Of a stretch of 64,000 nucleotides of DNA, positions 16,787 through 52,812 are shown piece by piece. The stretch comes from Formosa haliotis. GTDB taxonomy: Bacteria > Bacteroidota > Bacteroidia > Flavobacteriales > Flavobacteriaceae. Each line of letters opens with the position of its first letter. Positions within the stretch are counted from its first letter, which is position 1. The stretch covers positions 4,189,501 through 4,253,500 of the forward strand of contig NZ_BDEL01000001.1 in NCBI RefSeq assembly GCF_001685485.1. The letters run 5' to 3'. The position numbers and the translations under genes are program-made. The notes under the pieces were generated by a model that saw nothing but the letters and a program-made list of their open reading frames with translations, had not been told where the DNA came from and searched no databases.

Positions 16787-16813
16787 TTAAGTAATCATTT
16801 AAAGTACGTCATC

Positions 16814-17920: not shown

Positions 17921-17937
17921 TCTGAAAAAATAAAGTT

Positions 17938-36881: not shown

Positions 36882-36925
36882 ATGATAAATGTCATGTTTT
36901 TTAAGCCCAAGCTCACTTAAATTTG
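36882..36925 (+). promoter_or_regulatory. nos promoter: ATGAT-N4-GTCAT operator and -7 box
   Basis: ATGAT (36882-36886) and GTCAT (36891-36895) flank AAAT, a 5-N4-5 Crp/Fnr-type box. TAAATTTG at 36918-36925 is a perfect TAnnTTTG -7 box. With a start near 36930 the operator centre (36888.5) lies about -41.5, the position of class II activation. The first nos gene starts at 36947. Confidence 0.75.
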
Positions 36926-36946
36926 CTAATAAAATCTTAATTAATT

Positions 36947-37447
36947 ATGAAGACAGGATTAAAACTATTAACCTTATTATTCGCTACTCTAATTATGAGT
37001 TGTGGAGGAAAAGAAGAAAAGAAAACAGAAAAATTTAGTTACGACAAAAAAGCTCCAGCCACAGAAAAACCGGTAGCAAAGGAAGAAGTAGTTCCTGCCT
37101 CTAAACGTGTCGATTTAACGAATAAGGGGATTGGCCCAATAACTTCTGTGACTTTAGATGCTGAAGTTAATCAAGAAATGGCAACTCGTGGTGCAGATAT
37201 TTTCAAGAAGAATTGTACAGCTTGTCATAGAACCGACAAAAAATTCATTGGTCCAGCTCCAAAAGGTGTTTTAGATATTAGAACTCCAGAGTGGGTAATG
37301 AATATGATTTTAAATCCGGAAGTTATGGTAAAAGAAGATCCGTTAGCTAAAGATTTATTAATAGAATTTAATGGCGCACCTATGGCAAACCAACATTTGT
37401 CTGAAGAAGAAGCTAGAGCAATATTAGAATATTTCAGAACACTTTAA
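36947..37447 (+). CDS. Lipid-anchored mono-haem cytochrome c of the nos operon
   Basis: A 166-residue lipoprotein (lipobox IMSC, Cys19) with a charged linker and one haem site CTACH at residues 90-94. The probable axial Met is in GAPMANQHL near residue 145. It is the first gene of the nos operon and directly follows the shared operator and promoter. A membrane-tethered cytochrome here is a good candidate for the electron donor to NosZ, since no NosR is present. The gap to the next gene is 10 bases. Confidence 0.87.
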   Translation: MKTGLKLLTLLFATLIMSCGGKEEKKTEKFSYDKKAPATEKPVAKEEVVPASKRVDLTNKGIGPITSVTLDAEVNQEMATRGADIFKKNCTACHRTDKKFIGPAPKGVLDIRTPEWVMNMILNPEVMVKEDPLAKDLLIEFNGAPMANQHLSEEEARAILEYFRTL

Positions 37448-37457
37448 TATTAGGCTT

Positions 37458-38039
37458 ATGAAATCATTAAAAATTTCATTCTTAATTGTAGTAACATTTG
37501 GGTTTCTTTTGTCATGTAAAAATGACAAAGAAACCTCTGTAAGTAATTCAACTTCAGCGGCCGAGGCCACAAGATCTAATTCAACTGCAGATCAAGGTCA
37601 AGCTTTTATTAAGGACGACGAAGGTAAACCAACAGTACTGAGTATTGCCATGGAATCTCCAGACCATACCACTTTAGTTGCTGCGGTTAAAGCGGCAGGT
37701 CTGGAAAATGTATTAGTAAATGCAGGACCGTTAATGGTTTTTGCCCCTACAAACGAAGCTTTTGCAGCTTTACCAGAAGGCACTTTAGAGACCTTATTAA
37801 AGCCAGAAAATAAAGATGCTTTGGCTAATATTTTAAAGTATCATGTAACACCAGGAAATTATTCAAAAGACTTTTTAAAGAAATTTAAAGAATTAGGTCA
37901 AGCCAACAACCAATATGTAAAGGTAGAAGTTGTAGACGGCGAGCCGGTAATTGGTGGTGCTAAAATTTTAGCTAGTATTCCTGCCGGGAATGGGATTGTG
38001 CATGTTATAGACAAGGTATTGCTACCTCCAACCGAATAA
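37458..38039 (+). CDS. Fasciclin-domain lipoprotein in the nos operon
   Basis: A 193-residue lipoprotein (lipobox LSC, Cys20) with a single fasciclin (FAS1) domain from about residue 60 to 190. Both conserved boxes are present: VFAPTNEAFAALP and a closing NGIVHVIDKVLLPP. FAS1 domains mediate adhesion or protein contact and have no known catalytic function. Its place between the cytochrome and nosZ, with gaps of 10 and 26 bases, shows it belongs to the nos transcript. A role as an envelope partner for NosZ or the cytochrome is inference. Confidence 0.85.
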   Translation: MKSLKISFLIVVTFGFLLSCKNDKETSVSNSTSAAEATRSNSTADQGQAFIKDDEGKPTVLSIAMESPDHTTLVAAVKAAGLENVLVNAGPLMVFAPTNEAFAALPEGTLETLLKPENKDALANILKYHVTPGNYSKDFLKKFKELGQANNQYVKVEVVDGEPVIGGAKILASIPAGNGIVHVIDKVLLPPTE

Positions 38040-38065
38040 ATCAAACTATTAAATTATTGACGATA

Positions 38066-40036
38066 ATGATAAAAATTACCAAACTACCTCTTGCTATTCT
38101 AGCCATGTTTATGGTGCTTTCAAGTTGTAATGACGCTAAAAAATCTGATGGAAAATCGGGAGCCTTATCAAGTAATGTTGCCGAGAGAGTTTATGTTGCT
38201 CCAGGACAGCACGACGAATATTATGCTTTTATTTCTGGAGGTTATAGCGGAAACTTAACCGTATATGGATTGCCATCGGGAAGAATGTTTAAGGAAATTC
38301 CTGTGTTCTCTCAATTTCCAACTTCTGGATATGGATATTCTGAAGAAACAAAACCAATGTTGAATACCTCTCACGGCTTTGTGCCTTGGGGAGATGCACA
38401 TCACCCAGACATTTCTCAAACCAATGGTGAAACAGATGGTCGTTTTGTTTTTATTAACGAAAATAATACGCCTAGAATTGCGAAAGTAGATCTAACAACT
38501 TTTGAAACGACAGAGATTATTGAGATTCCTAACAGTGCAGGAAATCATAGTTCTTCTTTCGTAACCGAGAATACAGAGTATGTGGTAGCAGGAACACGTT
38601 TTTCTGTTCCAATTCCACAACGCGATATGCCAATTAAAGATTACAAAGGAAATTTTAAAGGCGCCTTATCTTTTTTATCGGTAGAACCAGAGCATGGAAC
38701 TATGGATCTTTCTTTCCAGATTTTAATGCCTGGATTTAACTACGATTTAGCCCACCCAGGTCGTGGCGAATCTCATGGTTGGTTCTTCTTTTCAACATAT
38801 AATACAGAAGAAGCAAGCACACTTTTAGAAGTTAATGCCTCGCAAAACGATAAAGATTTTATCGCTGCTGTAAACTGGAAAAAAGCAGAAGAATACATTA
38901 AAGCTGGAAAATTTAAAACAATGCCAGCGAATTACGCACACAATGTTTACGATGAAGCTACGCATACGGCAACATCAACAATGAAAAAAGAAGTTCGTGT
39001 ATTAAATGCATCAGAATTACCAGGATTGGTATATTTATTACCAACACCAAAATCACCTCACGGTTGTGATGTAGATCCTTCTGGACAATACATTGTAGGG
39101 AATGGTAAACTTTCTGCTAACTTAACCGTGCATTCATTCACTAAAATGATAGATGCTATTGAAAATAAAAAGTTTGATGGTGAAGCTTACGGTATTCCAA
39201 TTTTGAAATTTGAAGATGTTCTTGCAGGTGTTGTAGAGCAAGCAGGTTTAGGCCCATTACATACAGAATTTGACGATAAAGGAAATGGTTATACTACGTT
39301 CTTTATTTCTTCGGAAGTTGTAAAATGGAAATTAGGTACTTGGGAGGTGTTAGACAGACAACCAACATTTTACTCGGTGGGTCACCTAACAATTCCTGGA
39401 GGAAATTCTAGAAAACCTACTGGTAAATATATGTTTGCCATGAATAAAATTACAAAGGACCGTTATTTACCAACGGGACCAGAATTAGAGCATTCAGCAC
39501 AATTGTATGATATTTCTGGAGATAAAATGGAATTGTTATTAGATTTTCCAACACACGGAGAACCGCATTATGCTGCTGCCATTCTAGCATCTAAAGTAGC
39601 TCCTAACTCTAAGAAAATTTATAAGTTAGAAGATAACGAGCATCCTTTTGCTGCCAAAAGCGATAGCGAAACTAAAGTGGTTCGCGATGGTAATACTGTT
39701 CATATATACATGACGACTATTAGAAGTCATTTCTCACCAGATAATATCGAGGGGATAAAAGTAGGAGATAAGGTTTACTTCCATGTTACCAATCTCGAAC
39801 AAGATTTTGATGTGCCTCATGGCTTCGCTGTTATCGGACAAAATACATCAGAGCTTTTAATTATGCCTGGACAAACAAAAACATCGGTTTGGGAGCCTAA
39901 ACAAGTAGGCGTTTGGCCGTTCTATTGTACAGATTTCTGTTCTGCATTACACCAAGAGATGCAAGGCTATATTCGTGTTTCTGCTGCCGGTGCCGATACC
40001 CCACTAAAATGGTCTATGGGTGAAGATATAGAATAA
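38066..40036 (+). CDS. nosZ: Nitrous oxide reductase, clade II type
   Basis: A 656-residue enzyme that reduces N2O to N2. It has a Sec-type lipoprotein signal (lipobox SSC, about Cys21 from this start) rather than the Tat signal of clade I. The CuZ centre ligands lie in GDAHHPD, KSPHGCD, GPLHTEF, VGHL and HGEPHYA. The CuA site is in the C-terminal cupredoxin domain: Cys621, Cys625, His629 and Met632 in CTDFCSALHQEM, plus the His in DVPHGF. I chose ATG at 38066; the only upstream option is a TTG nine bases earlier. A strong terminator follows (40081). Confidence 0.96.
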   Translation: MIKITKLPLAILAMFMVLSSCNDAKKSDGKSGALSSNVAERVYVAPGQHDEYYAFISGGYSGNLTVYGLPSGRMFKEIPVFSQFPTSGYGYSEETKPMLNTSHGFVPWGDAHHPDISQTNGETDGRFVFINENNTPRIAKVDLTTFETTEIIEIPNSAGNHSSSFVTENTEYVVAGTRFSVPIPQRDMPIKDYKGNFKGALSFLSVEPEHGTMDLSFQILMPGFNYDLAHPGRGESHGWFFFSTYNTEEASTLLEVNASQNDKDFIAAVNWKKAEEYIKAGKFKTMPANYAHNVYDEATHTATSTMKKEVRVLNASELPGLVYLLPTPKSPHGCDVDPSGQYIVGNGKLSANLTVHSFTKMIDAIENKKFDGEAYGIPILKFEDVLAGVVEQAGLGPLHTEFDDKGNGYTTFFISSEVVKWKLGTWEVLDRQPTFYSVGHLTIPGGNSRKPTGKYMFAMNKITKDRYLPTGPELEHSAQLYDISGDKMELLLDFPTHGEPHYAAAILASKVAPNSKKIYKLEDNEHPFAAKSDSETKVVRDGNTVHIYMTTIRSHFSPDNIEGIKVGDKVYFHVTNLEQDFDVPHGFAVIGQNTSELLIMPGQTKTSVWEPKQVGVWPFYCTDFCSALHQEMQGYIRVSAAGADTPLKWSMGEDIE

Positions 40037-40080
40037 ATATATGCTTAGGAGAATTTTATTTTAAGGTTTATTTTCCTACT

Positions 40081-40120
40081 AAAGGCGGGAGTTGTGTTAT
40101 CGCTCCCGCCTTTCTTTTTT
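40081..40120 (+). terminator. Terminator between nosZ and the nos accessory genes
   Basis: AAAGGCGGGAG (40081-40091) pairs with CTCCCGCCTTT (40103-40113) across an 11-base loop, followed by CTTTTTT. The stem is GC-rich and strong. Confidence 0.88.
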
Positions 40121-40163
40121 ACAGAGTAATTGATAACTAACCTAAAACTAATCTGTATGTGTT

Positions 40164-40784
40164 ATGAAAAAAGCAGGTATTATAATGATAGTAGGTTCCT
40201 TACTTTTATTAGGACTTTTTAAATTTCCATTATGGAACATCATGCTTGGCGCCCCACAATATCCAGATCCCCTGGGAATGAATATTTATGTTGACGGTAT
40301 TCGAGGGGTATCTGAATTTGATATTCAAAATTTAGACGGATTAAATCATTATATTGGCATGAAAAAAATTCCGAAACCTGAAGAGATGTGGGAGTTTTCC
40401 GTGTTTCCAAAGGTGGTTTTAGGCATGTCATTACTTGGTGTTTTATTAGGAATTCTGGGGTTTATGAAAAAAATCAGTCCAAAGTATTTCTTAGGATGGT
40501 TTGTGTTAATGGCTGTTTTAGGTATTTTAGGGATGTACGATTTTAATAATTGGTTAATAGATTATGGTAGCAATTTAGATCCGAAAGCGATCATTAAAGC
40601 TTATAATCCAGATGGATCGCCAATGGCTTATAAACCACCATTATTAGGCCATAAACAATTATTAAATTTTCATGTAACCTCTTTACCACACACGGGCGGA
40701 TATTTAATGTTTGTGGGAATGACACTAACACTTATTGCCTATTGGGTAGGTAAAAAATCAACTCAAATGCAATCTAAACGATAA
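40164..40784 (+). CDS. Membrane protein of the nos cluster (NosB-like candidate)
   Basis: The 206-residue protein has about four membrane helices (residues 5-22, 80-98, 107-125 and 178-196) and a periplasmic loop after the first. Clade II nos clusters commonly carry a membrane protein of unknown function after nosZ (nosB), and the position fits; I cannot confirm homology by eye. The conserved-looking His/Tyr segments (GLNHYIGMKKIPKPEEMW, LLNFHVTSLPHTGGY) could bind copper or haem. It starts 127 bases after nosZ, past a strong terminator, and leads the accessory genes. Confidence 0.7.
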   Translation: MKKAGIIMIVGSLLLLGLFKFPLWNIMLGAPQYPDPLGMNIYVDGIRGVSEFDIQNLDGLNHYIGMKKIPKPEEMWEFSVFPKVVLGMSLLGVLLGILGFMKKISPKYFLGWFVLMAVLGILGMYDFNNWLIDYGSNLDPKAIIKAYNPDGSPMAYKPPLLGHKQLLNFHVTSLPHTGGYLMFVGMTLTLIAYWVGKKSTQMQSKR

Positions 40785-40815
40785 GCGATTTGCAAAACTT
40801 TTAAAAATCGAAATT

Positions 40816-41253
40816 ATGCAAACTTTAAAAAAATATTCAGTTTTAGCCTTACTATTATTTTTTCTTGGCTGTAATGTGTCTCCAAAAGCTATAGATTATG
40901 GTAATGAAGGCTGTCATTATTGTAGTATGACTATAGTCGATAAAATTCACGCTGCAGAGGTTGTTACAAATAAAGGTAAAGTCTATAAATTCGATGCTAC
41001 AGAGTGTATGGCTCATTTTATGGAAGATTTTAATCGTTCAGAAATAGCACTTTATTTAGTAAATCATTATTCAAAACCGGAAGTTCTTATAGATGCTACT
41101 CAAGCCACTTTTTTGGTAAGTAAAAATATTCCAAGTCCGATGGGAGCCTTTGTAACTGCTTTCCAAGACCATAACATTGCGGAAAAGGTAAAATCGGAAC
41201 AAGGCGGAACGCTATATACTTGGAACGAAATTTTAGAGCATTTAAAGCAGTAG
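40816..41253 (+). CDS. nosL: NosL copper chaperone lipoprotein
   Basis: A 145-residue lipoprotein (lipobox LGC, about Cys19) with the NosL metal motif GCHYCSM at about residues 32-38. The TECMAHFM region and the MGAFVTAF stretch near residue 112 are also typical. NosL delivers Cu(I) for assembly of the CuZ centre of NosZ. It is followed three bases later by nosD. Confidence 0.93.
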   Translation: MQTLKKYSVLALLLFFLGCNVSPKAIDYGNEGCHYCSMTIVDKIHAAEVVTNKGKVYKFDATECMAHFMEDFNRSEIALYLVNHYSKPEVLIDATQATFLVSKNIPSPMGAFVTAFQDHNIAEKVKSEQGGTLYTWNEILEHLKQ

Positions 41254-41256
41254 TTA

Positions 41257-42492
41257 ATGTATAAAAAATTAGCTTGTTTAGTCGTTATGTTTATAACGTG
41301 TTACAGTAATGCACAACAAATCGAGGTATGTAGCAACTGTAATATTTCTTCCATTAAAGAGGCTATTGCACAAGCAAAGGATTTTGATACCATTCTTATT
41401 CAAAAGGGTACTTATAAGGATCATAATATAGTAGTCGATAAACCTTTAACCATAATCGGAAAAAATTACCCAGTAATTGATGGAGAACTTAAAGGTGAAA
41501 TTTTTACTATAACGTCAAATCATGTCACTCTAGATGGATTATTCATTATTAATGTTGGTACAAGTTATACAACAGATTTTGCTGCGGTTCGCGTAAAACG
41601 TAGCAATCATTTTATAATTAAAAATCTAGTATTAGAGAAGTTGTTCTTTGGTATTTATCTAGAAAAATCGAACAACGGAAAAGTATTTCACAATAAAATA
41701 ATTGGAGACGCCGTAGAAGAGTATAATTCTGGAAATGGTATTCAATTATGGTATTGTAAAAATGTCGAGATAGAACGCAATCATATAGAACATGTTCGCG
41801 ATGGTATTTACCTTGAATTTTCAGACCACTGTGTGATTAAAAATAACGTAAGTGTTAATAATGTTAGGTATGGTTTACATTTCATGTTTTCTAACGACGA
41901 TGATTATATCGATAATACCTTCGAAAATAACGGTGCCGGTGTAGCCGTAATGTTCTCTAAGCGGATTAAAATGATAAATAATCTCTTTAAAGAAAATTGG
42001 GGACCAGCGTCTTATGGTATGCTTTTAAAAGAAATAAATGATTCTGAAATTAGGGGTAATACTTTTCAAAAAAACACCATAGGTATAAACATTGAAGGCT
42101 CTAATAGAATAAAGTATACCAATAATAATTTTATGAATAACGGTTGGGCTATTAAAGTTCGCGGAGCGTGTTACACCAATAGTTTTACTCAAAACAACTT
42201 TTTGTATAACTCCTTCGATATCGCCTACAACAGTCGTGTAAACGACAATACCTTTGAAGGTAATTTTTGGAGCAATTATACCGGATACGATTTAAATAAG
42301 GATGGTGTGGGCGATGTACCGTATCGTCCTGTAAAACTGTTTTCTTATATTGTAAATAGAACTCCAGAAACTATCATTTTAATGCGGAGCATGTTTATAG
42401 ACCTTATCGATTTTTCAGAAAAAGTATCACCCGTCTTTACACCAGATAATTTAATGGATAACGCACCTGCAATACAACAAATAACATGGTAA
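41257..42492 (+). CDS. nosD: NosD periplasmic copper-processing protein
   Basis: The 411-residue protein has a signal peptide (about residues 1-20). A right-handed beta-helix follows with CASH-type repeats, seen as regularly spaced GI/GN and NN turns such as GNGIQLWYCKNVEI and RDGIYLEFSDHC. NosD acts with the NosFY ABC transporter in maturation of NosZ, probably in sulfur or copper supply to CuZ. Its end overlaps nosF by 7 bases. Confidence 0.93.
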   Translation: MYKKLACLVVMFITCYSNAQQIEVCSNCNISSIKEAIAQAKDFDTILIQKGTYKDHNIVVDKPLTIIGKNYPVIDGELKGEIFTITSNHVTLDGLFIINVGTSYTTDFAAVRVKRSNHFIIKNLVLEKLFFGIYLEKSNNGKVFHNKIIGDAVEEYNSGNGIQLWYCKNVEIERNHIEHVRDGIYLEFSDHCVIKNNVSVNNVRYGLHFMFSNDDDYIDNTFENNGAGVAVMFSKRIKMINNLFKENWGPASYGMLLKEINDSEIRGNTFQKNTIGINIEGSNRIKYTNNNFMNNGWAIKVRGACYTNSFTQNNFLYNSFDIAYNSRVNDNTFEGNFWSNYTGYDLNKDGVGDVPYRPVKLFSYIVNRTPETIILMRSMFIDLIDFSEKVSPVFTPDNLMDNAPAIQQITW

Positions 42493-43193
42493 ATATTCAA
42501 GACCTACATAAGAGATTTGGAAAAAACAACGTGCTTAAAGGCATCGATTTAGAAATTAAGGAAGGTGGAATCTTCGCGGTGCTTGGCCCTAACGGATCGG
42601 GAAAAACGACCTTAATTAAATCGATATTAGGGATGGTAATTCCCGATAAAGGAAACATAACGGTATTAGGAGAAAGCATTAAGAAGAACCCAAATTACCG
42701 TCATGAAATTGATTATTTACCACAAATTGCAAATTTTCCGAGCAATTTGAAGGTAAAGGAATTGATTAAAATGATAAAAGATTTACGTAAAAATACCAAT
42801 CAAGACCTGCATCTTATAGAATTATTGAAACTGGGACCTTTTTTAGATAAAAAATTAGGTAACCTTTCTGGAGGAACAAAACAAAAAGTGAATTTGGTGT
42901 TAGCCTTTATGTTCGATAGTCCTATTATTATTTTAGACGAACCAACTACTGGCTTAGACCCAATATCGCTAATCCGTTTAAAAGAACTTATTTTATCGGA
43001 AAAGGCGAAAGGAAAAACTATACTCATTACCTCTCATATTATGAGTTTTGTTGAAGAAATGTCAGATGAAATTGTATTTCTTTTAGAAGGTAAGATTTAC
43101 TTTAAAGGAAGCATTTCAGAATTAAAAACTAAGACAAATCAGCTCGATTTTGAACATGCTATTGCGTCTATATTAAACGAAAATAATGCTTAA
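42486..43193 (+). CDS. nosF: NosF ABC transporter ATPase
   Basis: A 235-residue ATPase with Walker A GPNGSGKTT (residues 36-44), signature LSGGTKQKV, Walker B IIILDEPTTGLD and an H-loop ITSH. It overlaps nosD by 7 bases and nosY by 8 bases, indicating translational coupling. NosF energises the NosFY transporter that works with NosD in assembly of NosZ. Confidence 0.93.
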   Translation: MVNIQDLHKRFGKNNVLKGIDLEIKEGGIFAVLGPNGSGKTTLIKSILGMVIPDKGNITVLGESIKKNPNYRHEIDYLPQIANFPSNLKVKELIKMIKDLRKNTNQDLHLIELLKLGPFLDKKLGNLSGGTKQKVNLVLAFMFDSPIIILDEPTTGLDPISLIRLKELILSEKAKGKTILITSHIMSFVEEMSDEIVFLLEGKIYFKGSISELKTKTNQLDFEHAIASILNENNA

Positions 43194-43968
43194 AATATTA
43201 AAATATAGTTTCTACGATTTAATGCGTAGCCGTTGGAGTTACGTTTACTTTGCGTTCTATTTGTTACTAGGGGTGGTGCTCTTGTTTTTAAACCACGACC
43301 TTTCAAAAGCAGTTATAACTTTAATGAATGTTATAATTGTTTTAGTCCCATTAATAGGAACTATTTTTGGAGTCATGTACTATTACAATTCCCAAGAATT
43401 TACAGAACTCTTACTCGCACAGCCCTTAAAACGATCTTCCATATTTATGGGACAATATTTAGGAGTCGCTTTATCGCTATCCTTAAGTTTAATTTTAGGA
43501 TTAGGAATTCCGTTTGTATTCTACGGTTTGTTTAAAAGTAACGCCATTTGGGACTTTTCTTTACTACTAATAACAGGAACTTTTTTAACCTTAATCTTTA
43601 CGGCATTAGCGTTTAATATCGCGCTGTCTAACGAGAATAAAATTAAAGGTTTTGGCTATGCTATTTTATTATGGCTGTTTCTGGCCATTATTTACGATGG
43701 TGTGTTTTTAATGACACTAGTGTATTTTGAAAGCTATCCTTTAGATAAATTATCGCTTATAGGTACTATGTTAAATCCGATCGATTTATCGCGAACCCTT
43801 ATTTTGTTGAAGTTAGATATCTCGGCTTTATTAGGATATACTGGAGCCGTATTTAAACAATTTTTTGGAACTAACTACGGGCTTATCGTATCGTTAATTA
43901 CGCTTACTATTTGGGTTATTGTTCCTGTGTTAAGAATTATGCAAAAAGCTAAGAAAAAGGATTTTTAA
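43186..43968 (+). CDS. nosY: NosY ABC transporter permease
   Basis: A 260-residue ABC-2 type permease with six hydrophobic segments, matching NosY in length. It overlaps nosF by 8 bases and is the last gene of the nos cluster. It is the membrane partner of NosF and NosD. A decayed copy of the dispersed hairpin element lies between its stop and the convergent SafE-like gene. Confidence 0.92.
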   Translation: MLKILKYSFYDLMRSRWSYVYFAFYLLLGVVLLFLNHDLSKAVITLMNVIIVLVPLIGTIFGVMYYYNSQEFTELLLAQPLKRSSIFMGQYLGVALSLSLSLILGLGIPFVFYGLFKSNAIWDFSLLLITGTFLTLIFTALAFNIALSNENKIKGFGYAILLWLFLAIIYDGVFLMTLVYFESYPLDKLSLIGTMLNPIDLSRTLILLKLDISALLGYTGAVFKQFFGTNYGLIVSLITLTIWVIVPVLRIMQKAKKKDF

Positions 43969-44029
43969 CCGTTTCATTGTGTTGCTAACTTTAGTGGTCT
44001 AGAAGATATTGAAAACACTATTTTATAAT

Positions 44030-44135
44030 GAGGAGATATGAATAGACTTAGTGTCACATTTTAGTTATCATCTTGAATTCTGTTTAGAGTCTTCCTAAGT
44101 AAGTAAAGCTGTATTGAAGTTGAAATGCGTTCCTG
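44030..44135. repeat. Decayed copy 3 of the dispersed intergenic element
   Basis: In the same orientation as copy 1, it shows the pattern of both internal hairpins in degenerate form (CTTGAATTCTGTTTAGAG, and AAGCTGTATTGAAGTTGAAATGC). It again lies between two convergent genes (nosY and the SafE-like gene). The match is imperfect. Confidence 0.45.
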
Positions 44136-44152
44136 TAAAATTCTTTGCAGTA

Positions 44153-44854
44153 CTAATGACACTCTATTTCACTACTAATAACAGGATTTACTGGAGCGGG
44201 AGAGAGGTAGGGAATGCCTAGGCCTAGACCTCTAATAATAAAAAGGATTCCAATTATAATTACAAATACCGGAATGAGTTTCTGGATTCGTTTTTTTGCC
44301 AAACTACTCAATAGGTTTCCAAAATAAATGGCTGTCGTCATTAAAGGAATTGTACCTAATCCGAAAAGGAACATATACAAGCTCCCTTGTAAAGGTTCAG
44401 CTGTAGCGATAGACGATAGAACCGCCATATACACTAAGCCACAAGGTAGAAATCCGTTTAAAAAACCGATGGTTAAAAAGGTATCTGCTGTTTTTTTCTG
44501 AAGTGCAACACCCATTCCTTTTTTTACTTTGGAAATTATACTGAAAATGGGCTTCGAGAAATTGTATTTGCTAAAGGTTTTATAGGGCAATAAAACCACA
44601 ATAATTAAACACACTCCAATAAGTATTGATAGCTTTTGCTGAAGTCCGAAAATGTATAACCCCTTACCAATAAACCCGAAAATTAATCCAATAATGCTGT
44701 AGGCTAATAATCGGCCAAAGTGATAGGTGAATATCTGGCTTACTTTTTTCAACGTATTACTACGATCTACAGGAAGCATAAAGGCGATTGGCCCACACAT
44801 GCCAATACAATGAAAACTTCCTAATAGGCCAAATATAAACGCTGAAAGAAACAT
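44153..44854 (-). CDS. SafE/TauE-like (DsbD_2 type) membrane protein of the cbb3 locus
   Basis: A 233-residue protein with six hydrophobic helices. Conserved motifs are GSFHCIGMCGP near residues 12-22 and GFLNGFLPCGLVY near residue 130, each with Cys residues close to the membrane surface. These Cys pairs are typical of this branch, found at the end of many cco clusters and thought to act in copper supply to the oxidase. It starts one base after the ccoH stop codon, so it belongs to the cco operon. The His-rich end reads SEIECH. Confidence 0.82.
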   Translation of the reverse strand: MFLSAFIFGLLGSFHCIGMCGPIAFMLPVDRSNTLKKVSQIFTYHFGRLLAYSIIGLIFGFIGKGLYIFGLQQKLSILIGVCLIIVVLLPYKTFSKYNFSKPIFSIISKVKKGMGVALQKKTADTFLTIGFLNGFLPCGLVYMAVLSSIATAEPLQGSLYMFLFGLGTIPLMTTAIYFGNLLSSLAKKRIQKLIPVFVIIIGILFIIRGLGLGIPYLSPAPVNPVISSEIECH

Positions 44855-45301
44855 TTAATAGGTTATTGATTCCTTAAAAAGATAACTCGAGTCGTTATTT
44901 TTCCAATCGACTTTCATATCCCAACGGCCATCCAAAAGGCGGTCTTTTGGGATGAGAAAAGTGTGATTTTCTACCTTAATTGGTAATTGAAAATCTAATG
45001 CTTTATTTGAAGGACGATATAAGGACACCGTTCCAGAGATATTAGAGGCTTTAAATGCCGTAGGGAACTGTATTAAAATCCCTTTATCTGTAGACGTCCA
45101 TGTAACATCATCTTCAAGTGTTCTGGCATTTTGTTCTTTAGTAATATCATTTTGGAAGCTTAATTCTTGTTTGTAATAATCGTCGACTACTAAATCGTGA
45201 TTAAAACGATCGCCAACCATCATATTATATACAAAATATAATATAAACGATATAAAACACACAAAAGCAATAACAATTCCTGTTCCCCAATTTATTTTCA
45301 T
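44855..45301 (-). CDS. ccoH: CcoH (FixH) family assembly protein
   Basis: A 148-residue protein with one N-terminal membrane helix (about residues 7-28), then a periplasmic domain of the FixH fold (RWDMKVDWKN near the C-terminus). CcoH is a cbb3 oxidase assembly factor. It lies 24 bases after ccoG and one base before the SafE-like gene. Confidence 0.85.
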   Translation of the reverse strand: MKINWGTGIVIAFVCFISFILYFVYNMMVGDRFNHDLVVDDYYKQELSFQNDITKEQNARTLEDDVTWTSTDKGILIQFPTAFKASNISGTVSLYRPSNKALDFQLPIKVENHTFLIPKDRLLDGRWDMKVDWKNNDSSYLFKESITY

Positions 45302-45325
45302 AATGATAAGCTTTAGTCTTTTTAA

Positions 45326-46750
45326 TTATTTGTAGCTTCTTGGTCCTAAGAAACTAACAGTAGTGGTTTCAATCAATTTATCGTGACTGTAAACTTCAAG
45401 GGTAAGTTCGTTTTTATCTCCTTTTAAATCAGATTGTTTGATTTCGATAAATAAAGTACCTTCTGCCAAACCTTGACCAGGAACAACAAAAGTATCTGAA
45501 GCTGAAACTAATTTAATTTCGCCAGGATAATCCGCGAGTTTAAACGTTACATCGTCAATATCGTCGTTAGTTTTATTGATCAATTTATAGGTGAAAACGT
45601 TACTAATAATGTTGTTCTCTTTGTGTTGATATAACTGGCCTGGTAATCTTAACACTGTAGCTTCTAAAGCATTTCTAGAAAACAGCATACCACCCCAAAC
45701 CACGAGTAGAACGATTAAAACAGCACTGTAACCTTTTAAACGTGCTGTAAATTTAAATTTCTCCTTTTTCTCAATTTCGTCTTCACTAGCATATCTAATA
45801 AGTCCACGCGGAAAACCTACGCTATCCATTATGGTATCACACTCGTCTATACAAGCGGTACAATTAACACATTCTAATTGTGTACCATTTCTAATATCTA
45901 TACCAGTAGGGCAGACGTTTACACATTGAAAACAGTCTATACAATCGCCATGGCCAAGGGCTTCGCGATCTTCATTTTTACGGAATTTTTTTCTTCCATT
46001 TTCACCTTCACCACGTTTATGGTCGTAGGCCACAATTATAGATTTATCGTCTAGTAATACACCTTGAAGTCGGCCGTACGGACAAGCAATTATGCACACT
46101 TGTTCTCTAAACCAAGCAAATACAAAGTAGAATACTGCGGTAAATATTATTAATGAAATTAAGGTGCTAAAGTGGTTGGCAGGGCCTTCTTTAATATAAC
46201 TAATAACCTCGTCTCCACCTATTAAATACGCAAGGAATACATTTGCAATAATAAATGAAATGAGAAGGAAAAGAAACCATTTTATAAGTCGTTTTCTTAT
46301 TTTTTCTGCGTTCCAAGGCTGACGATCTAAACGCATTTGTTTTCCGCGGTCGCCATCGATCCAGAATTCTATTCTTCGGAAAACCATTTCCATAAAAATA
46401 GTTTGCGGACAAATCCATCCACAAAAAATACGTCCGAACGCTACTGTAAATAAGGCGAGAAAAACCACGCCAATAAGTAAGGAAACAACAAAGAGTTTAA
46501 AATCTTGAGGCCAGAACGGAAATCCGAAAATATTAAATCTACGCTCTAATACATTAAACATTAAAAATTGATTTCCGTGAATTTTAATAAACGGAGAAAC
46601 CAATAAAATGATTAATAGAATATAACTAACAATTTTACGCTTGTCGTAATACCTACCACTAGGTTTTTTAGGAAACACCCAAGCCCGTTTACCTTCTTCG
46701 GTTATTGTTCCAATAGAATCTCGAAAGACTTCGTGATCGGGAGTTTCCAT
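45326..46750 (-). CDS. ccoG: CcoG (FixG) ferredoxin-like assembly protein
   Basis: The 474-residue protein has five or six membrane helices. A GRIFCGWICPQTIFMEM motif (about residue 108) is present, and two 4Fe-4S sites fall near residues 262-305 (CIDCFQCVNVCPTG and CVNCTACIDECD). The C-terminal periplasmic domain contains an Ig-like fold. CcoG acts in copper reduction and assembly of cbb3 oxidase. It is 30 bases after ccoP. Confidence 0.93.
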   Translation of the reverse strand: METPDHEVFRDSIGTITEEGKRAWVFPKKPSGRYYDKRKIVSYILLIILLVSPFIKIHGNQFLMFNVLERRFNIFGFPFWPQDFKLFVVSLLIGVVFLALFTVAFGRIFCGWICPQTIFMEMVFRRIEFWIDGDRGKQMRLDRQPWNAEKIRKRLIKWFLFLLISFIIANVFLAYLIGGDEVISYIKEGPANHFSTLISLIIFTAVFYFVFAWFREQVCIIACPYGRLQGVLLDDKSIIVAYDHKRGEGENGRKKFRKNEDREALGHGDCIDCFQCVNVCPTGIDIRNGTQLECVNCTACIDECDTIMDSVGFPRGLIRYASEDEIEKKEKFKFTARLKGYSAVLIVLLVVWGGMLFSRNALEATVLRLPGQLYQHKENNIISNVFTYKLINKTNDDIDDVTFKLADYPGEIKLVSASDTFVVPGQGLAEGTLFIEIKQSDLKGDKNELTLEVYSHDKLIETTTVSFLGPRSYK

Positions 46751-46780
46751 AAATTATAATTGTTCTAAACTATTAAATAT

Positions 46781-47668
46781 TTATTGAGCTGAGTCATCAA
46801 CCCACACTTCGCCTTCAGCCTCTTTTGGGTTTGCAGGAGTAGTACCTTGCAAACTTAAAACATAACTGGCTACTTGAGCAATTTCGGCAGGTTTTAAACT
46901 TTGTTTCCATGCAATCATACCTTTACCAGCACGACCACCTTCGCTAATCGTGTGGAATACATGTTTAATACCTCCACCTATAATCCAATGATCATCGGTA
47001 AGGTTAGGACCAATTCCACCACCACCATCGGCCATATGGCACGCCACACAGTTAGCTTGGAAAATGGCTTTACCAGCACTTAAATCAGATTTATCTGTTA
47101 AAAGCGTTACCGAGTCGGCATCTACTAAATCTTTTGCTGTTTTTTTGTATTCCGCAATGGCTATTTTAGCTTCGGCTAATTCTGTTTCGTATTCATCTAT
47201 TTGAGAATCTCCATTAAAGACTTCATATTTTAATAGATATACAATAGCAAATACTATAGAAATGTAAAACGCATATTTCCACCATGGCGGAAGCGAATTG
47301 TCTAATTCTCGAATACCATCATAATTATGGTCTAAGATGATTTCATTTTCTTGCGCTATAGGTTTCTGACCTAATAATTTAATATACGTGTCTTTTGCCC
47401 ATTGTACAATTCGAGGTGTTTTGGATGCATTAGCAATATATCTCGCTTGTTCAGTTTCATCTAAACTTTGAAACAATACATTGTCTAACGCAGAAACAAT
47501 AGCTTCTATAGCAATAAGTACAACTAATACTAGAAGTAAGAATAGTAAAACAACAGGATATTTTATAAAAGCAGGCTCATTTCCAGAATCAACAAAGTAT
47601 TCTACTATCCCGGCGATGATAAAAAAGAGTACAGGTATTCTAACGTACGATGGTATATATTTTCTCAT
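46781..47668 (-). CDS. ccoP: CcoP, cbb3 oxidase subunit III (single haem)
   Basis: A 295-residue subunit with membrane helices near residues 10-25, 35-60 and 133-152, and a C-terminal cytochrome c domain. Only one CxxCH is present (CVACH, residues 207-211), whereas proteobacterial CcoP has two. The axial Met is probably in KGMIAWKQSL. It should pass electrons to CcoO in the fused subunit. Its start overlaps ccoQ by 4 bases. Confidence 0.92.
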   Translation of the reverse strand: MRKYIPSYVRIPVLFFIIAGIVEYFVDSGNEPAFIKYPVVLLFLLLVLVVLIAIEAIVSALDNVLFQSLDETEQARYIANASKTPRIVQWAKDTYIKLLGQKPIAQENEIILDHNYDGIRELDNSLPPWWKYAFYISIVFAIVYLLKYEVFNGDSQIDEYETELAEAKIAIAEYKKTAKDLVDADSVTLLTDKSDLSAGKAIFQANCVACHMADGGGGIGPNLTDDHWIIGGGIKHVFHTISEGGRAGKGMIAWKQSLKPAEIAQVASYVLSLQGTTPANPKEAEGEVWVDDSAQ

Positions 47669-47859
47669 AATGTGGTTTCGTTTTGGTGGTTATCGTTTTC
47701 AAAAGGAATTTGGCTTACCTTATCGATATAATCTTTTTTAGCAGTTAAAACCCACCAAAAGAGTACAACAAAAAAGCCAAAAAATATTAATAGAGACAGT
47801 ATCGGGTATATTTCTATTCCCGAGATACTATCCATATAGTTTTTTACGAAGCTTAACAT
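47665..47859 (-). CDS. ccoQ: CcoQ, small cbb3 subunit
   Basis: The 64-residue protein has a single membrane helix (about residues 17-40) and a polar tail. Size and place between ccoNO and ccoP fit CcoQ/FixQ, which stabilises the oxidase. It lies 14 bases after ccoNO and overlaps ccoP by 4 bases. Confidence 0.82.
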   Translation of the reverse strand: MLSFVKNYMDSISGIEIYPILSLLIFFGFFVVLFWWVLTAKKDYIDKVSQIPFENDNHQNETTL

Positions 47860-47873
47860 GATTCTTGTTTTAT

Positions 47874-50054
47874 TTATTCTACTTCTTTTACTTTAATATC
47901 TGTTCCTAATCGTTGTAAATATGCGATAATAGCTACGATTTCACGATTTCTCATCTCGACAAAGTCGGCACCACTTTCGGCAGCTGCTTTCTTATCACTT
48001 TCGTAAGTGGCAGCAAAATCGGGATCGTTATATAAATTCTTTTCTATGGCTGTTCCTTGTTCTAACATGCTTTGTTGTGCATTGGCAATGTCTTCTTCTG
48101 TATAAGGTACACCTAAGCTAACCATGGCTTTCATTTTACCTTCGGTGTTAGATTTGTCTAATTCATCTCTAACAATCCATTGGTATGCAGGCATAATAGA
48201 TCCACTAGAAGTACTTTGAGGATCGTACATGTGGTTTAAGTGCCAGTTATCTGAATATTTACCACCAACGCGATGTAAATCTGGTCCGGTACGTTTACTT
48301 CCCCAAAGGAATGGGTGATCGTAAACATATTCTCCTGCTTTAGAATATTCTCCGTAACGCTCTACTTCACTTCTAAATGGTCTAATCATTTGTGAGTGAC
48401 AACCCACACAACCTTCACGAATATAAATATCGCGACCTTCAAGTTCTAACGGCGTATATGGTTTTACACTACTAATAGTAGGGATGTTAGATTTTACCAT
48501 TATAGTTGGTACTATTTGAATAATACCACCAATTAATATAGCGATAGTTGCTAAAATAGTTAACTGAATTGGTTTACGCTCTAACCAAGTATGGAAGCCT
48601 TCGCCTGCAAGTCTACGTTTAGAAACACGTTCTAAAGCAGGAGCTTCAGCTAATTCGTCTGATACTGTTGTACCGCGTTTAACCGTTGCAATTACGTTAT
48701 ACACTAATACTAACATTCCGGTTAAGTAAAGCGTTCCACCCACAGCACGCATCGCGTACATCGGAATGATTTCGGTTACGGTTTCTAAAAAGTTACCATA
48801 AACTAAAGTTCCGTCAGGGTTAAATTGATTCCACATACTTGCTTGTAAGAAACCAGCAACATATAGCGGAAGTGCGTACATTACGATACCTAAAGTACCT
48901 ATCCAGAAATGAAGGTTTGCAAGCTTTAAAGAGTATAATTTTGTTTTAAATAATTTTGGTACTAACCAATAAATCATTCCAAAAGTAAAGAATCCGTTCC
49001 ATGCTAAAGCACCAACATGTACGTGAGCAATAATCCAATCGGTAAAGTGACCAACGGCATTTACATTTTTAAGCGATAATAATGGACCTTCGAAAGTCGC
49101 CATACCATAACCTGTAATGGCAACAACCATAAACTTTAAAACAGGATCTGTACGTACTTTATCCCAAGCCCCTCTTAAGGTTAAGAGTCCGTTTATCATA
49201 CCTCCCCAAGAAGGCATTAATAACATTACAGAGAAGGCTACACCTAAGTTTTGTGCCCATTCTGGTAGAGCGGTGTATAATAAATGGTGAGGTCCTGCCC
49301 AGATATAAATAAAGATTAAAGACCAAAAGTGAACGATAGATAGTTTATAAGAATATACAGGTCTGTTCGCTGCTTTTGGAACAAAATAATACATTAATCC
49401 TAAGAACGGTGTTGTTAAAAAGAAGGCTACCGCGTTGTGCCCGTACCACCATTGTACTAAGGCATCTTGAACACCAGCGTACACCGAGTAGCTTTTCATT
49501 CCGCTAACAGGAAGTTCTAAACTGTTGAAAATATGTAACACCGCAACGGTAACAAATGTGGCTAAATAAAACCAAATAGCAACATATAAATGGCGTTGTC
49601 TACGTTTTAAAATGGTTGCAATTAAGTTCCATCCAAATACAACCCAAACCAAGGCTATAGCAATATCTATAGGCCATTCTAACTCGGCATATTCTTTAGA
49701 CGATGTATACCCTAGCGGTAATGAAATGGCTGCTGCAACAATAATAAGTTGCCATCCCCAAAAGTTTATACTACTTAAAAGATCGCTCGCCATTCTGGCT
49801 TTAAGAAGCCGTTGAGAGGAGTAATATACTCCGGCAAAAATGGCATTACCAACAAAAGCGAAAATAATAGCATTTGTATGTAATGGTCTTAATCTACCAA
49901 AACTTAGCCAAGAAATGCCATCGGTAAGATTAGGAAACAAAAAGAAAAATGCCAGTAATAAACCCACTGCCATTCCAACTACACCCCAAAAAATGGTTGC
50001 ATAAATGAATTTTTTAACGATTTTATTATCGTAGTAGAATTGTTGTATTTCCAT
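47874..50054 (-). CDS. ccoNO: CcoNO, fused cbb3 oxidase subunits I and II
   Basis: A 726-residue fusion. The N-terminal part (about residues 1-475) is the 12-helix CcoN haem-copper core, with metal ligands in LHTNAIIFAF, QWWYGHNAVAF and HVGALAWNG (His ligands). The C-terminal part is CcoO, with one more membrane helix (about residues 497-517) and haem site CVGCH near residue 549. It catalyses reduction of O2 to water with high affinity and pumps protons. The locus order is ccoS-ccoNO-ccoQ-ccoP-ccoG-ccoH-SafE. Confidence 0.95.
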   Translation of the reverse strand: MEIQQFYYDNKIVKKFIYATIFWGVVGMAVGLLLAFFFLFPNLTDGISWLSFGRLRPLHTNAIIFAFVGNAIFAGVYYSSQRLLKARMASDLLSSINFWGWQLIIVAAAISLPLGYTSSKEYAELEWPIDIAIALVWVVFGWNLIATILKRRQRHLYVAIWFYLATFVTVAVLHIFNSLELPVSGMKSYSVYAGVQDALVQWWYGHNAVAFFLTTPFLGLMYYFVPKAANRPVYSYKLSIVHFWSLIFIYIWAGPHHLLYTALPEWAQNLGVAFSVMLLMPSWGGMINGLLTLRGAWDKVRTDPVLKFMVVAITGYGMATFEGPLLSLKNVNAVGHFTDWIIAHVHVGALAWNGFFTFGMIYWLVPKLFKTKLYSLKLANLHFWIGTLGIVMYALPLYVAGFLQASMWNQFNPDGTLVYGNFLETVTEIIPMYAMRAVGGTLYLTGMLVLVYNVIATVKRGTTVSDELAEAPALERVSKRRLAGEGFHTWLERKPIQLTILATIAILIGGIIQIVPTIMVKSNIPTISSVKPYTPLELEGRDIYIREGCVGCHSQMIRPFRSEVERYGEYSKAGEYVYDHPFLWGSKRTGPDLHRVGGKYSDNWHLNHMYDPQSTSSGSIMPAYQWIVRDELDKSNTEGKMKAMVSLGVPYTEEDIANAQQSMLEQGTAIEKNLYNDPDFAATYESDKKAAAESGADFVEMRNREIVAIIAYLQRLGTDIKVKEVE

Positions 50055-50066
50055 AGTAAGAGTTGA

Positions 50067-50252
50067 TTATTCTTTTTTAGTTAGTATAGGTTTTTTAGGT
50101 TTTTCTGTTATTAGTTCGTCTTCAAAGAGCATCCGAACCGAAGGGGTGTAACTATCATCAAATTGCCCATTTTTTACAGCAAAAATAAACGCAACAAAAA
50201 AGATTAATGCTACGATGATGCTGACTCCCAGTAAAATGTAAATTACACTCAT
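50067..50252 (-). CDS. ccoS: CcoS, cbb3 oxidase maturation protein
   Basis: A 61-residue protein with one membrane helix (about residues 4-27), then NGQFDD, a stretch typical of CcoS. CcoS is required for cofactor insertion in cbb3 oxidases. It begins the operon, 45 bases after the palindromic operator at 50297-50320. Confidence 0.88.
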   Translation of the reverse strand: MSVIYILLGVSIIVALIFFVAFIFAVKNGQFDDSYTPSVRMLFEDELITEKPKKPILTKKE

Positions 50253-50271
50253 ATATATTTATAATAATTCG

Positions 50272-50320
50272 TAAAAGTAATAGGCTCTAACGCTTCAAAA
50301 TATGACATTTGTCATATTTT
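50272..50320 (-). promoter_or_regulatory. cco promoter: perfect palindromic ATGAC-N4-GTCAT operator and -7-like box
   Basis: The 24-base palindrome at 50297-50320 has 11-base arms that are fully complementary, with two central T's; the core is ATGAC-N4-GTCAT. On the minus strand TACTTTTA (50279 down to 50272) is one base from TAnnTTTG. With a start near 50266 the operator centre (50308.5) lies at about -42, a class II activator position. Confidence 0.78.
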
Positions 50321-50333
50321 TAGAATTCGATTC

Positions 50334-52718
50334 CTACAATTTTCTTCCTACCCAATTTGTTGTAATGGTTGTAAAAACAACAATACTAATTGAACTTAGC
50401 GGCATAAGTATGGCTGCGACTACAGGTGCAAGTTGTCCTGTTACAGCAAAATAGAGCCCAATGCAATTATAGAATAAAGATAATAAAAAACTCCATTTAA
50501 TAATCTTAATTGCTGATTTTGATGCTTTAATAAACCGATTTAACTTGTCAAAAACGCTCGCATCCATAATACCATCGCAGGCCGGCGAGAAAATATTTAT
50601 GTTTTCAGAAAGGGCAATCCCAACATCACTTTGGGCTAAAGCACCAGAATCGTTTAATCCATCTCCAACCATGAGTACTTTTGCACCTTCGGTTTGATGG
50701 TATTTTATATATTCTAATTTATCTTCGGGTTTTTGGTTAAATAGCAATTTTGTTTTTGTGGGTAATAATTTGGTTAGGTTTTCTAATTCACCTTCATTAT
50801 CTCCCGATAAAATAACCAAATCGTAAGCTGCTTTCAAGCTGTTAAAAAGTTTAGATAAGCCCGTTCTGTAGCTATTATAAAACGTAAACTTCCCTTTGTA
50901 TGCATTATTACTACTTATATGTACACTTGTATTTAATGATTTCTGAAGTTCCTTTTGTCCGACGAAATTTGCAGACCCTACTTTTATCGCATTATTTTTA
51001 ATCGAGGCCTCTAAACCTAGTCCAATATGCTCTTCAAAAGTGTCTAAAGAGATAATATCGTTAGTTTTTAAAATATCGTAAAGTGTTCTGCTTAATGGAT
51101 GATTAGATCCTCGCAATGTATTTTTTAATAGGCGCTCTTCCTCCTGATTAAGCGGTGTGCCATGATAGGTTGCCGTACTTTTTTTATTCGATGTTATGGT
51201 TCCAGTTTTATCAAAAATAATGGTGTTTATAGCTGCTAATTGTTCTATAACACTGGCATTTTTTAAATAGAATTTATGCTTACCAAAAATACGAAGGATG
51301 TTACCAAAGGTAAACGGAGCTGCTAAAGCAAGAGCGCACGGGCAAGCAATTATAAGCACAGCAGTAAAAACATTCATGGCTTTACTGGCATCGTAAAATA
51401 GCCAAAATGTTGTAGCAATAACCGCAATAGAGAGGATAGAAATGGTAAAACGTTTGCTTATGGTGTTGGTTAAGTTTACAAAACTATCTTCTTTGTTTTT
51501 ATTGAAAATATCGTGGCTCCAAAGTTGTGTTAAATAACTTTGTTTCACTTCTTTTAAGGCTTCCATTTCAATACTTCCAGAGGTTTGTTTTCCTCCAGCG
51601 AATAATTTATCGCCCGAAATTTTTGTAATGGTTTCCGATTCTCCGGTTACAAAACTATAATCGATTGCCGCTTTGCCTTTTATTAAAATTCCGTCTACAG
51701 GAATAAGTTCTTCATTGCGAATAAGTAATCGATCTCCTTTTTTAATATCGTAAATCTGAATTGGGATTTCTTCGGTTTCCGAAACAATTTTAGTCACCGC
51801 AATAGGGAAATACGATTTGTAATCGCGCTCAAAAGATAAAAACGAATAAGTTTTCTGCTGAAAAAACTTTCCTAATAATAAGAAGAACACCAGTCCAGTT
51901 AAACTATCAAAAAAGCCTTGCCCTAAATCGAACATAATTTCTATGGTGCTCCTTACAAAAAGAACTAGAATTCCAATAGCAATAGGAACATCTATATTTA
52001 GCAGATTTGCACGCAATCCTTTATAGGCAGAAATAAAATAATCGCGCCCGGCATAAAATACAACCGGAAGAGAAAAAGCAAACATTAACCACCTAAACAC
52101 AGGTTTATACTGGTCTAACCAAAATTCGTTCACTTCAAAATATTCTGGAAACGATAAAAACATTACATTTCCGAAGGCAAAACCAGCAATTCCTAATTTG
52201 TAAATTATAGAACGATTTATTTGTTTTTTAGTCGAGCTATAATCGTCTAAACTAATATAGGGTTCGTAACCAATGCTACTTAATAAGATAACTACTTCTT
52301 GAAGACTAGTGTGCTGAGATTGATAAGTAATTCGGACTGTTTTTTTATTGAAATCGACTTGCGAACTGGTTATTTCGGGTTTCAGTTTGTGTAAATTTTC
52401 TAAAATCCAAATACAAGAACTACAATGAATATGCGGAATATATAAACTAGCAATTTGTACGTTTTCGTCGTTAAATTCTAAAAGCTTTTCTAAAATGTGT
52501 TCATCTTTTAAAAAGTCGTATTTGCCTTCATTTATAATCGGAATGGCTCCAGGCGCATTCTGTATGTCGTAATATGCTGTAAGATTACTTTCAGAAAAAA
52601 TTTCATAAACCGTTTTACAGCCATTACAGCAAAACCATTTGTCATCGAAAGGGATGGCAACAGCGTCACAGCTATTCCCACAGTGATAACAGGTATTTTT
52701 ATCTGAAAGTTTACTCAT
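50334..52718 (-). CDS. ccoI: CcoI (FixI) copper-translocating P-type ATPase
   Basis: The 794-residue ATPase begins with a Cys-rich domain (CYHCGNSC and FCCNGCKTVYE) and an HMA domain (CSSCIW near residue 98). Eight membrane helices include the ion-binding CPC in IIACPCALAL (about residue 458). The phosphorylation site is DKTGT, and the GDGLNDSGAL hinge is present. It exports Cu+ from the cytoplasm for assembly of the cbb3 CuB centre. It lies upstream of ccoS, separated by the operator at 50297, and is divergent from the Crp/Fnr gene. Confidence 0.94.
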   Translation of the reverse strand: MSKLSDKNTCYHCGNSCDAVAIPFDDKWFCCNGCKTVYEIFSESNLTAYYDIQNAPGAIPIINEGKYDFLKDEHILEKLLEFNDENVQIASLYIPHIHCSSCIWILENLHKLKPEITSSQVDFNKKTVRITYQSQHTSLQEVVILLSSIGYEPYISLDDYSSTKKQINRSIIYKLGIAGFAFGNVMFLSFPEYFEVNEFWLDQYKPVFRWLMFAFSLPVVFYAGRDYFISAYKGLRANLLNIDVPIAIGILVLFVRSTIEIMFDLGQGFFDSLTGLVFFLLLGKFFQQKTYSFLSFERDYKSYFPIAVTKIVSETEEIPIQIYDIKKGDRLLIRNEELIPVDGILIKGKAAIDYSFVTGESETITKISGDKLFAGGKQTSGSIEMEALKEVKQSYLTQLWSHDIFNKNKEDSFVNLTNTISKRFTISILSIAVIATTFWLFYDASKAMNVFTAVLIIACPCALALAAPFTFGNILRIFGKHKFYLKNASVIEQLAAINTIIFDKTGTITSNKKSTATYHGTPLNQEEERLLKNTLRGSNHPLSRTLYDILKTNDIISLDTFEEHIGLGLEASIKNNAIKVGSANFVGQKELQKSLNTSVHISSNNAYKGKFTFYNSYRTGLSKLFNSLKAAYDLVILSGDNEGELENLTKLLPTKTKLLFNQKPEDKLEYIKYHQTEGAKVLMVGDGLNDSGALAQSDVGIALSENINIFSPACDGIMDASVFDKLNRFIKASKSAIKIIKWSFLLSLFYNCIGLYFAVTGQLAPVVAAILMPLSSISIVVFTTITTNWVGRKL

Positions 52719-52759
52719 TATTTTTTGGCCAAAGGTTTAAAATAGCATGCTGCAAAAAT

Positions 52760-52773
52760 ATGATATTTGTCAT
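52760..52773. promoter_or_regulatory. ATGAT-N4-GTCAT operator between ccoI and the Crp/Fnr gene
   Basis: ATGAT-ATTT-GTCAT is centred at 52766.5, about midway between the divergent starts at 52718 and 52813. The surrounding bases resemble the cco palindrome. On the plus strand TACTTTTG (52782-52789) is a -7 box, so the operator would be centred near -28. This overlaps the -33 region, which suits negative autoregulation. Confidence 0.7.
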
Positions 52774-52812
52774 GGTTTCACTACTTTTGCTAAGAATTAA
52801 ATTATTTTTGGA

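Follow-up and report, generated by a model that had tools for sequence, protein, structure and literature searches.

The FNR proteins of Escherichia coli and A. fischeri have the Crp/Fnr fold, recognize a 5-4-5 repeat with a TGA core and activate transcription from class II positions. The FNR box is TTGAT-N4-ATCAA, and the cluster cysteines of FNR are arranged as CX2CX5C plus a distal one. In rhizobia, the cbb3 oxidase is under low-oxygen control by the FixL-FixJ-FixK/FnrN network, in which a PAS kinase pathway works in parallel with a Crp/Fnr protein (PMC7888657), and in the DNR, NnrR and HcpR regulons nitrogen-oxide genes are controlled by Crp/Fnr-family proteins via 5-4-5 inverted repeats (PMC1274295). 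Here, we describe a computational analysis of a window, the whole stretch of 64,000 nucleotides of Formosa haliotis DNA at C1:4189501-4253500 (in a 4.31-Mb genome of a single contig), in which genes for nitrous oxide (N2O) reduction (nos), a cbb3 oxidase (cco) and a Crp/Fnr regulator that we call FNR1 share one putative operator. We followed the sites, their conservation, spacing and linkage, and the distribution of candidate regulators across the Flavobacteriaceae. We propose, with a probability of about 0.72, that ATGAY-N4-RTCAT is the class II site through which a respiratory regulon of this family is activated at low oxygen, with FNR1 as its likeliest reader in this organism and a receiver-Crp fusion protein as a probable additional or alternative reader elsewhere.

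The box shares its 5-4-5 symmetry and TGA core with the FNR box, and its 5-4-5 form with the repeats of the nitrogen-oxide regulons. Its commonest half-site has A as the outer base, where FNR has T. Unlike the rhizobial arrangement, the receiver and Crp parts are fused here, and many genomes were found to hold only one of the two branches. The boxes of DNR (CTTGATnnnnATCAAG) and HcpR (TTGACnnnnGTCAA and GTAACnnnnGTTAC) also differ from it, and the main text of that study mentions neither Flavobacteria nor Cytophaga (PMC1274295). Another study terms the CRP/FNR homologues that it predicts in Flavobacteriales, Ignavibacteria and Saprospiraceae MalR-like and reports no evidence that they control denitrification (PMC8510549). 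A literature search of titles and the beginnings of abstracts returned no description of the ATGAY-N4-RTCAT box, of FNR1 or of the fusion, and no account of how Flavobacteriaceae switch nos on.

Three sites in the window have the common core:

36882-36895, plus strand: operator 1, ATGATAAATGTCAT, upstream of nos, predicted to span -48 to -35.
50302-50315, minus strand: operator 2, ATGACAAATGTCAT, upstream of ccoS, inside a near-palindrome at 50297-50320.
52760-52773, no strand assigned: operator 3, ATGATATTTGTCAT, in class II position toward ccoI and over the FNR1 promoter.

The word ATGAYNNNNGTCAT gave four strand hits at these three places, where 0.18 were expected, and none of 100 shuffled windows reached at least four. 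In a motif scan the sites at nos, ccoS and the regulator gene fell exactly where a preliminary description of the window had put them. The perfect 24-base palindrome that it had reported at 50302 was a slight overstatement: the region is palindromic at 22 of 24 positions, with a mismatch at the central two (50308-50309).

Conservation was followed in the best 80 FNR1 loci of 392 relatives, and in 60 genomes hand-picked among the matches listed for nosZ, which is present in 178 of 397 family genomes; the two sets overlap (L068 and the G230 contig, for example) and are therefore not independent. As the promoter element we took the box TAnnTTTG, here called the -7 box, with at most one mismatch, and we counted gaps from the operator to its first T. 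Upstream of nos, the operator was exact in 57 of the 60 genomes. In 54 it lay within 300 bases before the start of the cytochrome c gene, and in three more (G314, G253 and G025) at another upstream place with the box at 22 bases; G155 and G135 had a one-mismatch operator with the box at 22. Of the 80 FNR1 loci, 61 had an exact operator no more than 300 bases ahead of the gene; in seven others the receiver-Crp fusion and a universal stress protein (Usp) gene precede FNR1, and in L080 a Usp-like gene does. Behind the ccoI stop codon and before ccoS, it was exact in 62 of the 71 loci with a ccoI open reading frame (ORF), two of which end at a contig end within ccoI. Among 3584 spaced palindromic words, ATGAY-N4 ranked first in the 80 regions before FNR1 (61 regions, against 31 for the next word and at most one for any other word of the same composition) and again in the 60 nos upstream regions (54, next 31). 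A search of related genomes, proposed with the preliminary description as a check, thus recovered the site at the homologous nos, ccoS and FNR1 places. Beyond the family, 20 regions upstream of nos, spread over 19 further families of the class, contained an exact site with the box at 22 in six cases and at 23 in one; the remaining 13 had no exact site with a box at 22-23, whole 4-kb stretches being scanned rather than promoters alone.

The distance between operator and -7 box is fixed. In the window the boxes are as follows:

36918-36925, plus strand: nos -7 box, TAAATTTG, 22 bases after operator 1; predicted start near 36930.
50272-50279, minus strand: ccoS -7 box, TACTTTTA, one mismatch, 22 bases after operator 2; predicted start near 50267.
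52730-52737, minus strand: ccoI -7 box, AACCTTTG, one mismatch, 22 bases after operator 3; predicted start near 52725.
52782-52789, plus strand: FNR1 -7 box, TACTTTTG, 8 bases after operator 3; predicted start near 52794.

All 54 nos promoters whose operator was exact had a gap of 22 bases (51 with an exact box), as did all 64 ccoS promoters (60 with an exact box) and 59 of 61 ccoI promoters, where the box usually had one mismatch. At FNR1 it was 8 bases in 59 of 61 promoters (24 exact boxes). Shuffled sequences contained, on average, 0.1-0.2 exact boxes at 20-22. The spacing is kept to the base in many Flavobacteriaceae even where the probable reader protein differs. The first base of the ccoI box on the minus strand is off consensus in this genome as in almost every relative, an exact box at 22 occurring in 1 of 61 loci, and this box looks as if it had been kept weak and activator-dependent.

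The mapped sigma-A box of Flavobacterium psychrophilum lies at -12 to -5 (PMC9723704), and a -33 motif is reported not to have been found in F. johnsoniae (PMC7366714). Given a box at -12 to -5, a gap of 22 would put the operator at -48 to -35, centred on -41.5 as in class II promoters, and the gap of 8 at FNR1 would put it at -34 to -21, centred on -27.5. By this predicted geometry the nos, ccoS and ccoI promoters would be class II promoters. The position claimed earlier for nos and cco therefore holds with a gap that is conserved in the family, and operator 3 at 52760, predicted to be class II toward ccoI as well, adds ccoI to the putative targets. The same site had been said to overlap the -33 region of the regulator gene; with its gap of 8 it would overlap that gene's own promoter in 59 of 61 loci, and self-repression of FNR1 fits such an arrangement.

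The sites, their conservation, spacing and linkage, and the distribution of the regulators are results of computation; binding, activation, self-repression and oxygen as the signal are inferred. A Crp/Fnr dimer at -41.5 would help sigma-A RNA polymerase to start nos, ccoS-ccoNO and ccoI under scarce oxygen, and N2O reduction and high-affinity O2 respiration would rise together. FNR1, encoded at 52813, most likely reads the operator in this organism; bound at operator 3, it would also cover the FNR1 promoter (centre -27.5) and so hold back its own gene as ccoI is activated. Elsewhere in the family, the receiver-Crp fusion encoded beside a PAS histidine kinase probably shares the reading of the site with FNR1 or takes its place. 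The cbb3 genes of F. psychrophilum are strongly induced by oxygen limitation, and the terms 'fnr' and 'crp' are absent from the main text of that study (PMC9723704). The box and its fixed spacing would allow sequence to predict which Flavobacteriaceae couple N2O reduction to low oxygen, and they offer a simple reporter test. Clade II NosZ bacteria, many of them Bacteroidota, are thought to be important as N2O sinks. Moreover, promoters that stay fixed while their likely reader changes would amount to a natural experiment in network evolution.

The candidate reader in this genome is encoded next to operator 3:

52813-53490, plus strand: FNR1, a Crp/Fnr regulator of 225 amino acids with Cys 4, 7, 29, 53, 59 and 106, the likeliest operator reader here.

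The protein has a cNMP-binding-like domain (PF00027, 70.3 bits) followed by HTH_Crp_2 (PF13545, 58.5 bits), both above their cut-offs, and by these domains FNR1 is a member of the Crp/Fnr superfamily. Against the curated Fnr model NF008365 it scored 91 bits, below the cut-off of 228, and its full-length relatives with names are Formosa proteins of 75-84% identity. FNR1 and A. fischeri FNR can be aligned over their full length, and the two N-terminal cysteines and a VCxIP-type cysteine align: C4 and C7 with the first two cluster cysteines and C106 with the last. FNR1 does not carry all four cluster cysteines of FNR, as the third is replaced by S13 here and by N13 in 22 of 22 further orthologues (18 from genomes with FNR1 only, 4 from L193-L196). 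All 81 sequences of one set and all 22 further ones keep C4, C7, C53 and C106; the two sets overlap. Because C53 is invariant while C29 and C59 vary, we propose C53 as a replacement cluster ligand in FNR1. Cys29 was rejected for this role, being kept in only 13 of the 22 further orthologues and missing in the homologue P0011; Cys59 is kept in 15 of the 22. The predicted structure of FNR1 has a mean pLDDT of 72.5, falling to about 50 at the N-terminus, and in a Foldseek search with it a Porphyromonas Crp/Fnr protein took the top rank, A. fischeri FNR being one of many Crp structures below it. The recognition helix reads ESxIR, with E191 and R195 present in 81 of 81 sequences.

The second candidate reader was found in relatives, at loci of which three were read:

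L193:6529-8822, plus strand: PAS histidine kinase and receiver-Crp fusion, beside ccoI.
L060:6679-9025, plus strand: PAS histidine kinase and receiver-Crp fusion, beside ccoI.
L185:5972-8539, plus strand: PAS histidine kinase and receiver-Crp fusion, in a genome with the fusion only.

A PAS kinase precedes the fusion in all three. The genes of L193 run in the order ccoI, a kinase of 414 amino acids, the fusion, a Usp gene, FNR1, which L060 repeats with two extra ORFs after ccoI; in L185 the kinase has 501 amino acids. Pfam assigned PAS, HisKA and HATPase domains to both the L193 and the L185 kinase. In the single 350-amino-acid fusion protein of L193 it recognized receiver, cNMP-like and HTH_Crp_2 domains. 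In the PAS domain of FixL, a His and an Arg have roles in haem and oxygen binding. The L193 kinase, the only one compared, matched FixL over its PAS domain with an E value of 6.7e-20 and agreed at the His and Arg columns, which indicates a FixL-type PAS with proximal His and Arg. Separate FixJ and FixK proteins, as in the FixLJ-FixK cascade, are not what L193 holds, the corresponding domains lying in one fused protein; the kinase-fusion pair looks like FixL with a fused FixJ-FixK. In most of the loci L182-L192, L196-L198 and L201 the fusion gene is followed by an array of two to six Usp genes, and an ATGAY-N4-RTCAT site often stands just behind it.

We compared regulator content between nos-positive genomes of the family (60 of 178) and nos-negative ones (20 of 219). 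Among the nos genomes, 49 had an FNR1 orthologue (44-63% identity) and 42 the fusion (about 350 amino acids, at E 1e-60): 31 had both, 18 FNR1 only, 11 the fusion only and none neither. Where FNR1 was the only one, the nos site (at most one mismatch) was kept in 17 of 18 genomes, the ccoI site in 18 of 18 (box at 21-22) and the ccoS site in 17 of 18. The nine fusion-only genomes with ccoI all had the ccoI and ccoS sites (at most one mismatch, box at 22). Among the nos-less genomes, 13 of 20 had FNR1 or the fusion and 7 had neither, against 0 of 60 with neither among nos genomes (Fisher, 2.4e-5); within the 60 nos genomes alone the regulator pattern was weak (Fisher, 0.024). Twelve nos-less genomes had ccoI, with the ccoI site in 11 and a ccoS site with a readable box in 8. 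The fusion was not found in the F. haliotis genome, where 34 of 52 candidates were scored and four HTH_Crp_2 genes have frames of 224-260 amino acids.

Two further Crp/Fnr proteins of this genome were set aside as readers. L041 has a different recognition helix. The second Crp/Fnr gene of the window (14318-15067) encodes a protein with CX2CX4C plus a distal Cys; its orthologues lie in loci that carry AAGTA-N4-TACTT in 9 of 11 cases, and exact ATGAY-N4-RTCAT was absent from all 11 fetched 7-kb regions around them. AAGTA-N4-TACTT repeats also occur in the window at 14277-14290 and 15357-15370, before this gene and before a nitrate/sulfonate-type ABC transporter (15392-18783), and the word is probably the paralogue's own operator. 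Because no fusion was found in the genome and the second Crp/Fnr seems to have its own box, FNR1 is the best candidate reader here.

Several observations weigh against this assignment and against the regulon as a whole. The preliminary description had assigned control to one regulator, encoded at 52813; FNR1 stands as the best candidate in this genome, but the matter is not settled for the family, since 11 of 60 nos genomes lack an FNR1 orthologue and keep the nos operator (11 of 11), all with the fusion. E-x-x-I-R is found as well in the second Crp/Fnr of the window, and the reader therefore cannot be named from the helix alone; L040, another Crp/Fnr gene of this genome, gave no reading frame under the filter used. 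G077 has FNR1 and nosZ, and no nos operator was found in its upstream region. At the thresholds used, neither regulator was detected in G020, which nevertheless has a one-mismatch ccoS site with the box at 22 and may thus contain another or a more divergent reader. Small genomes (1.6-2.2 Mb) account for several of the seven nos-less cases with neither regulator, and the Fisher count ignores ancestry. Finally, the bare motif is barely enriched genome-wide: ATGAYNNNNRTCAT occurs at 32 places and its reversed control at 25, and when one mismatch is allowed ATGACWWWWRTCAT gives 41 hits per strand, below its controls (83 and 55).

The small genome-wide excess would fit three sites that are chance matches or a functionless repeat, yet no shuffle reached the count in the window, and in relatives the sites recur at the corresponding promoters with base-exact spacing, which makes this reading very improbable. 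A regulon of the DNR or NnrR type, answering to nitric oxide or another nitrogen oxide and not to oxygen, would accord with the nos genes of Pseudomonas, which are under NO-responsive Crp/Fnr proteins (PMC1274295). We consider it improbable: the cbb3 genes, no typical NO target, have the operator at identical spacing, those of F. psychrophilum respond to oxygen limitation (PMC9723704), and FNR1 retains cysteines at FNR cluster positions. Somewhat less remote, although still unlikely, is that another Crp/Fnr-type protein is the main reader and FNR1 a secondary one. In the family this would be the receiver-Crp fusion with its PAS kinase, as suggested by the operators of the fusion-only genomes and by the likeness between the helix of the fusion (E[ST]xIR in all 26 proteins examined) and that of FNR1 (ESxIR); here it would be L040 or an undetected protein. 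The 18 nos genomes with FNR1 and no fusion at the threshold used, which nearly all keep the nos site, and the failure to find a fusion in F. haliotis speak against this reading. Our proposal of FNR1 here and FNR1, the fusion or both elsewhere can be extended, tentatively and at somewhat less than even odds, to one conserved box served by two unlike and interchangeable sensors: FNR1, an FNR-like protein with the rearranged cluster ligand set Cys 4, 7, 53 and 106, and a haem-PAS kinase with a fused FixJ-FixK-type protein, the promoters being kept to the base while lineages gain or lose either reader. This extension is weakened because the helix is common to a third paralogue and because the seven regulator-less genomes are in part small.

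The genes that the three operators would serve in the window are these:

36947-43968, plus strand: nos operon, encoding a cytochrome c, a fasciclin-domain protein, NosZ (Sec type), a protein of unknown function (206 amino acids), NosL, NosD, an ABC ATPase and a permease-like protein.
44153-50252, minus strand: cbb3 operon, with ccoS (FixS), a ccoNO fusion, a ccoP-like gene, ccoG, FixH (ccoH) and a DsbD-like membrane protein.
50334-52718, minus strand: ccoI, the copper P-type ATPase of the cbb3 cluster, named by a metal-ATPase match and its location.

NosZ scored 940.8 bits as the Sec type, against a cut-off of 625. The cbb3 operon is transcribed opposite to nos, and ccoI lies upstream of it, divergent from FNR1 across operator 3.

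Across the genome the operator signal resides in position and not in the abundance of the bare motif. All 12 exact ATGACWWWWRTCAT places lie outside ORFs of at least 120 amino acids, and 16 of the 20 remaining ATGAYNNNNRTCAT places fall within such an ORF. At 10 of the 32 ATGAYNNNNRTCAT places a box with no more than one mismatch stood at exactly 22 bases (binomial, 3.3e-9), against a background of 2.5% that was taken from all locus positions, coding ones included, and may be too low for AT-rich spacers. Two of the places with site and box at 22 lie inside ORFs and are probably chance. An operator with the box at 22 precedes an ExtI-like porin gene divergent from a Usp gene in L029, and in L019 a gene for a 461-amino-acid protein with a sub-threshold SprT-like match. 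In L032 (2108-3916, minus strand) the box at 22 has one mismatch and the 602-amino-acid product has no Pfam or NCBIfam match. Exact boxes at 22 stand before a TonB/B12-type receptor operon in L034 (401-3617, minus strand), whose start codon is 411 bases off, and before a glyoxalase-fold/carboxyltransferase pair in L017 (948-2939, minus strand); our guess is that these two may tie low oxygen to B12-dependent propionate metabolism.

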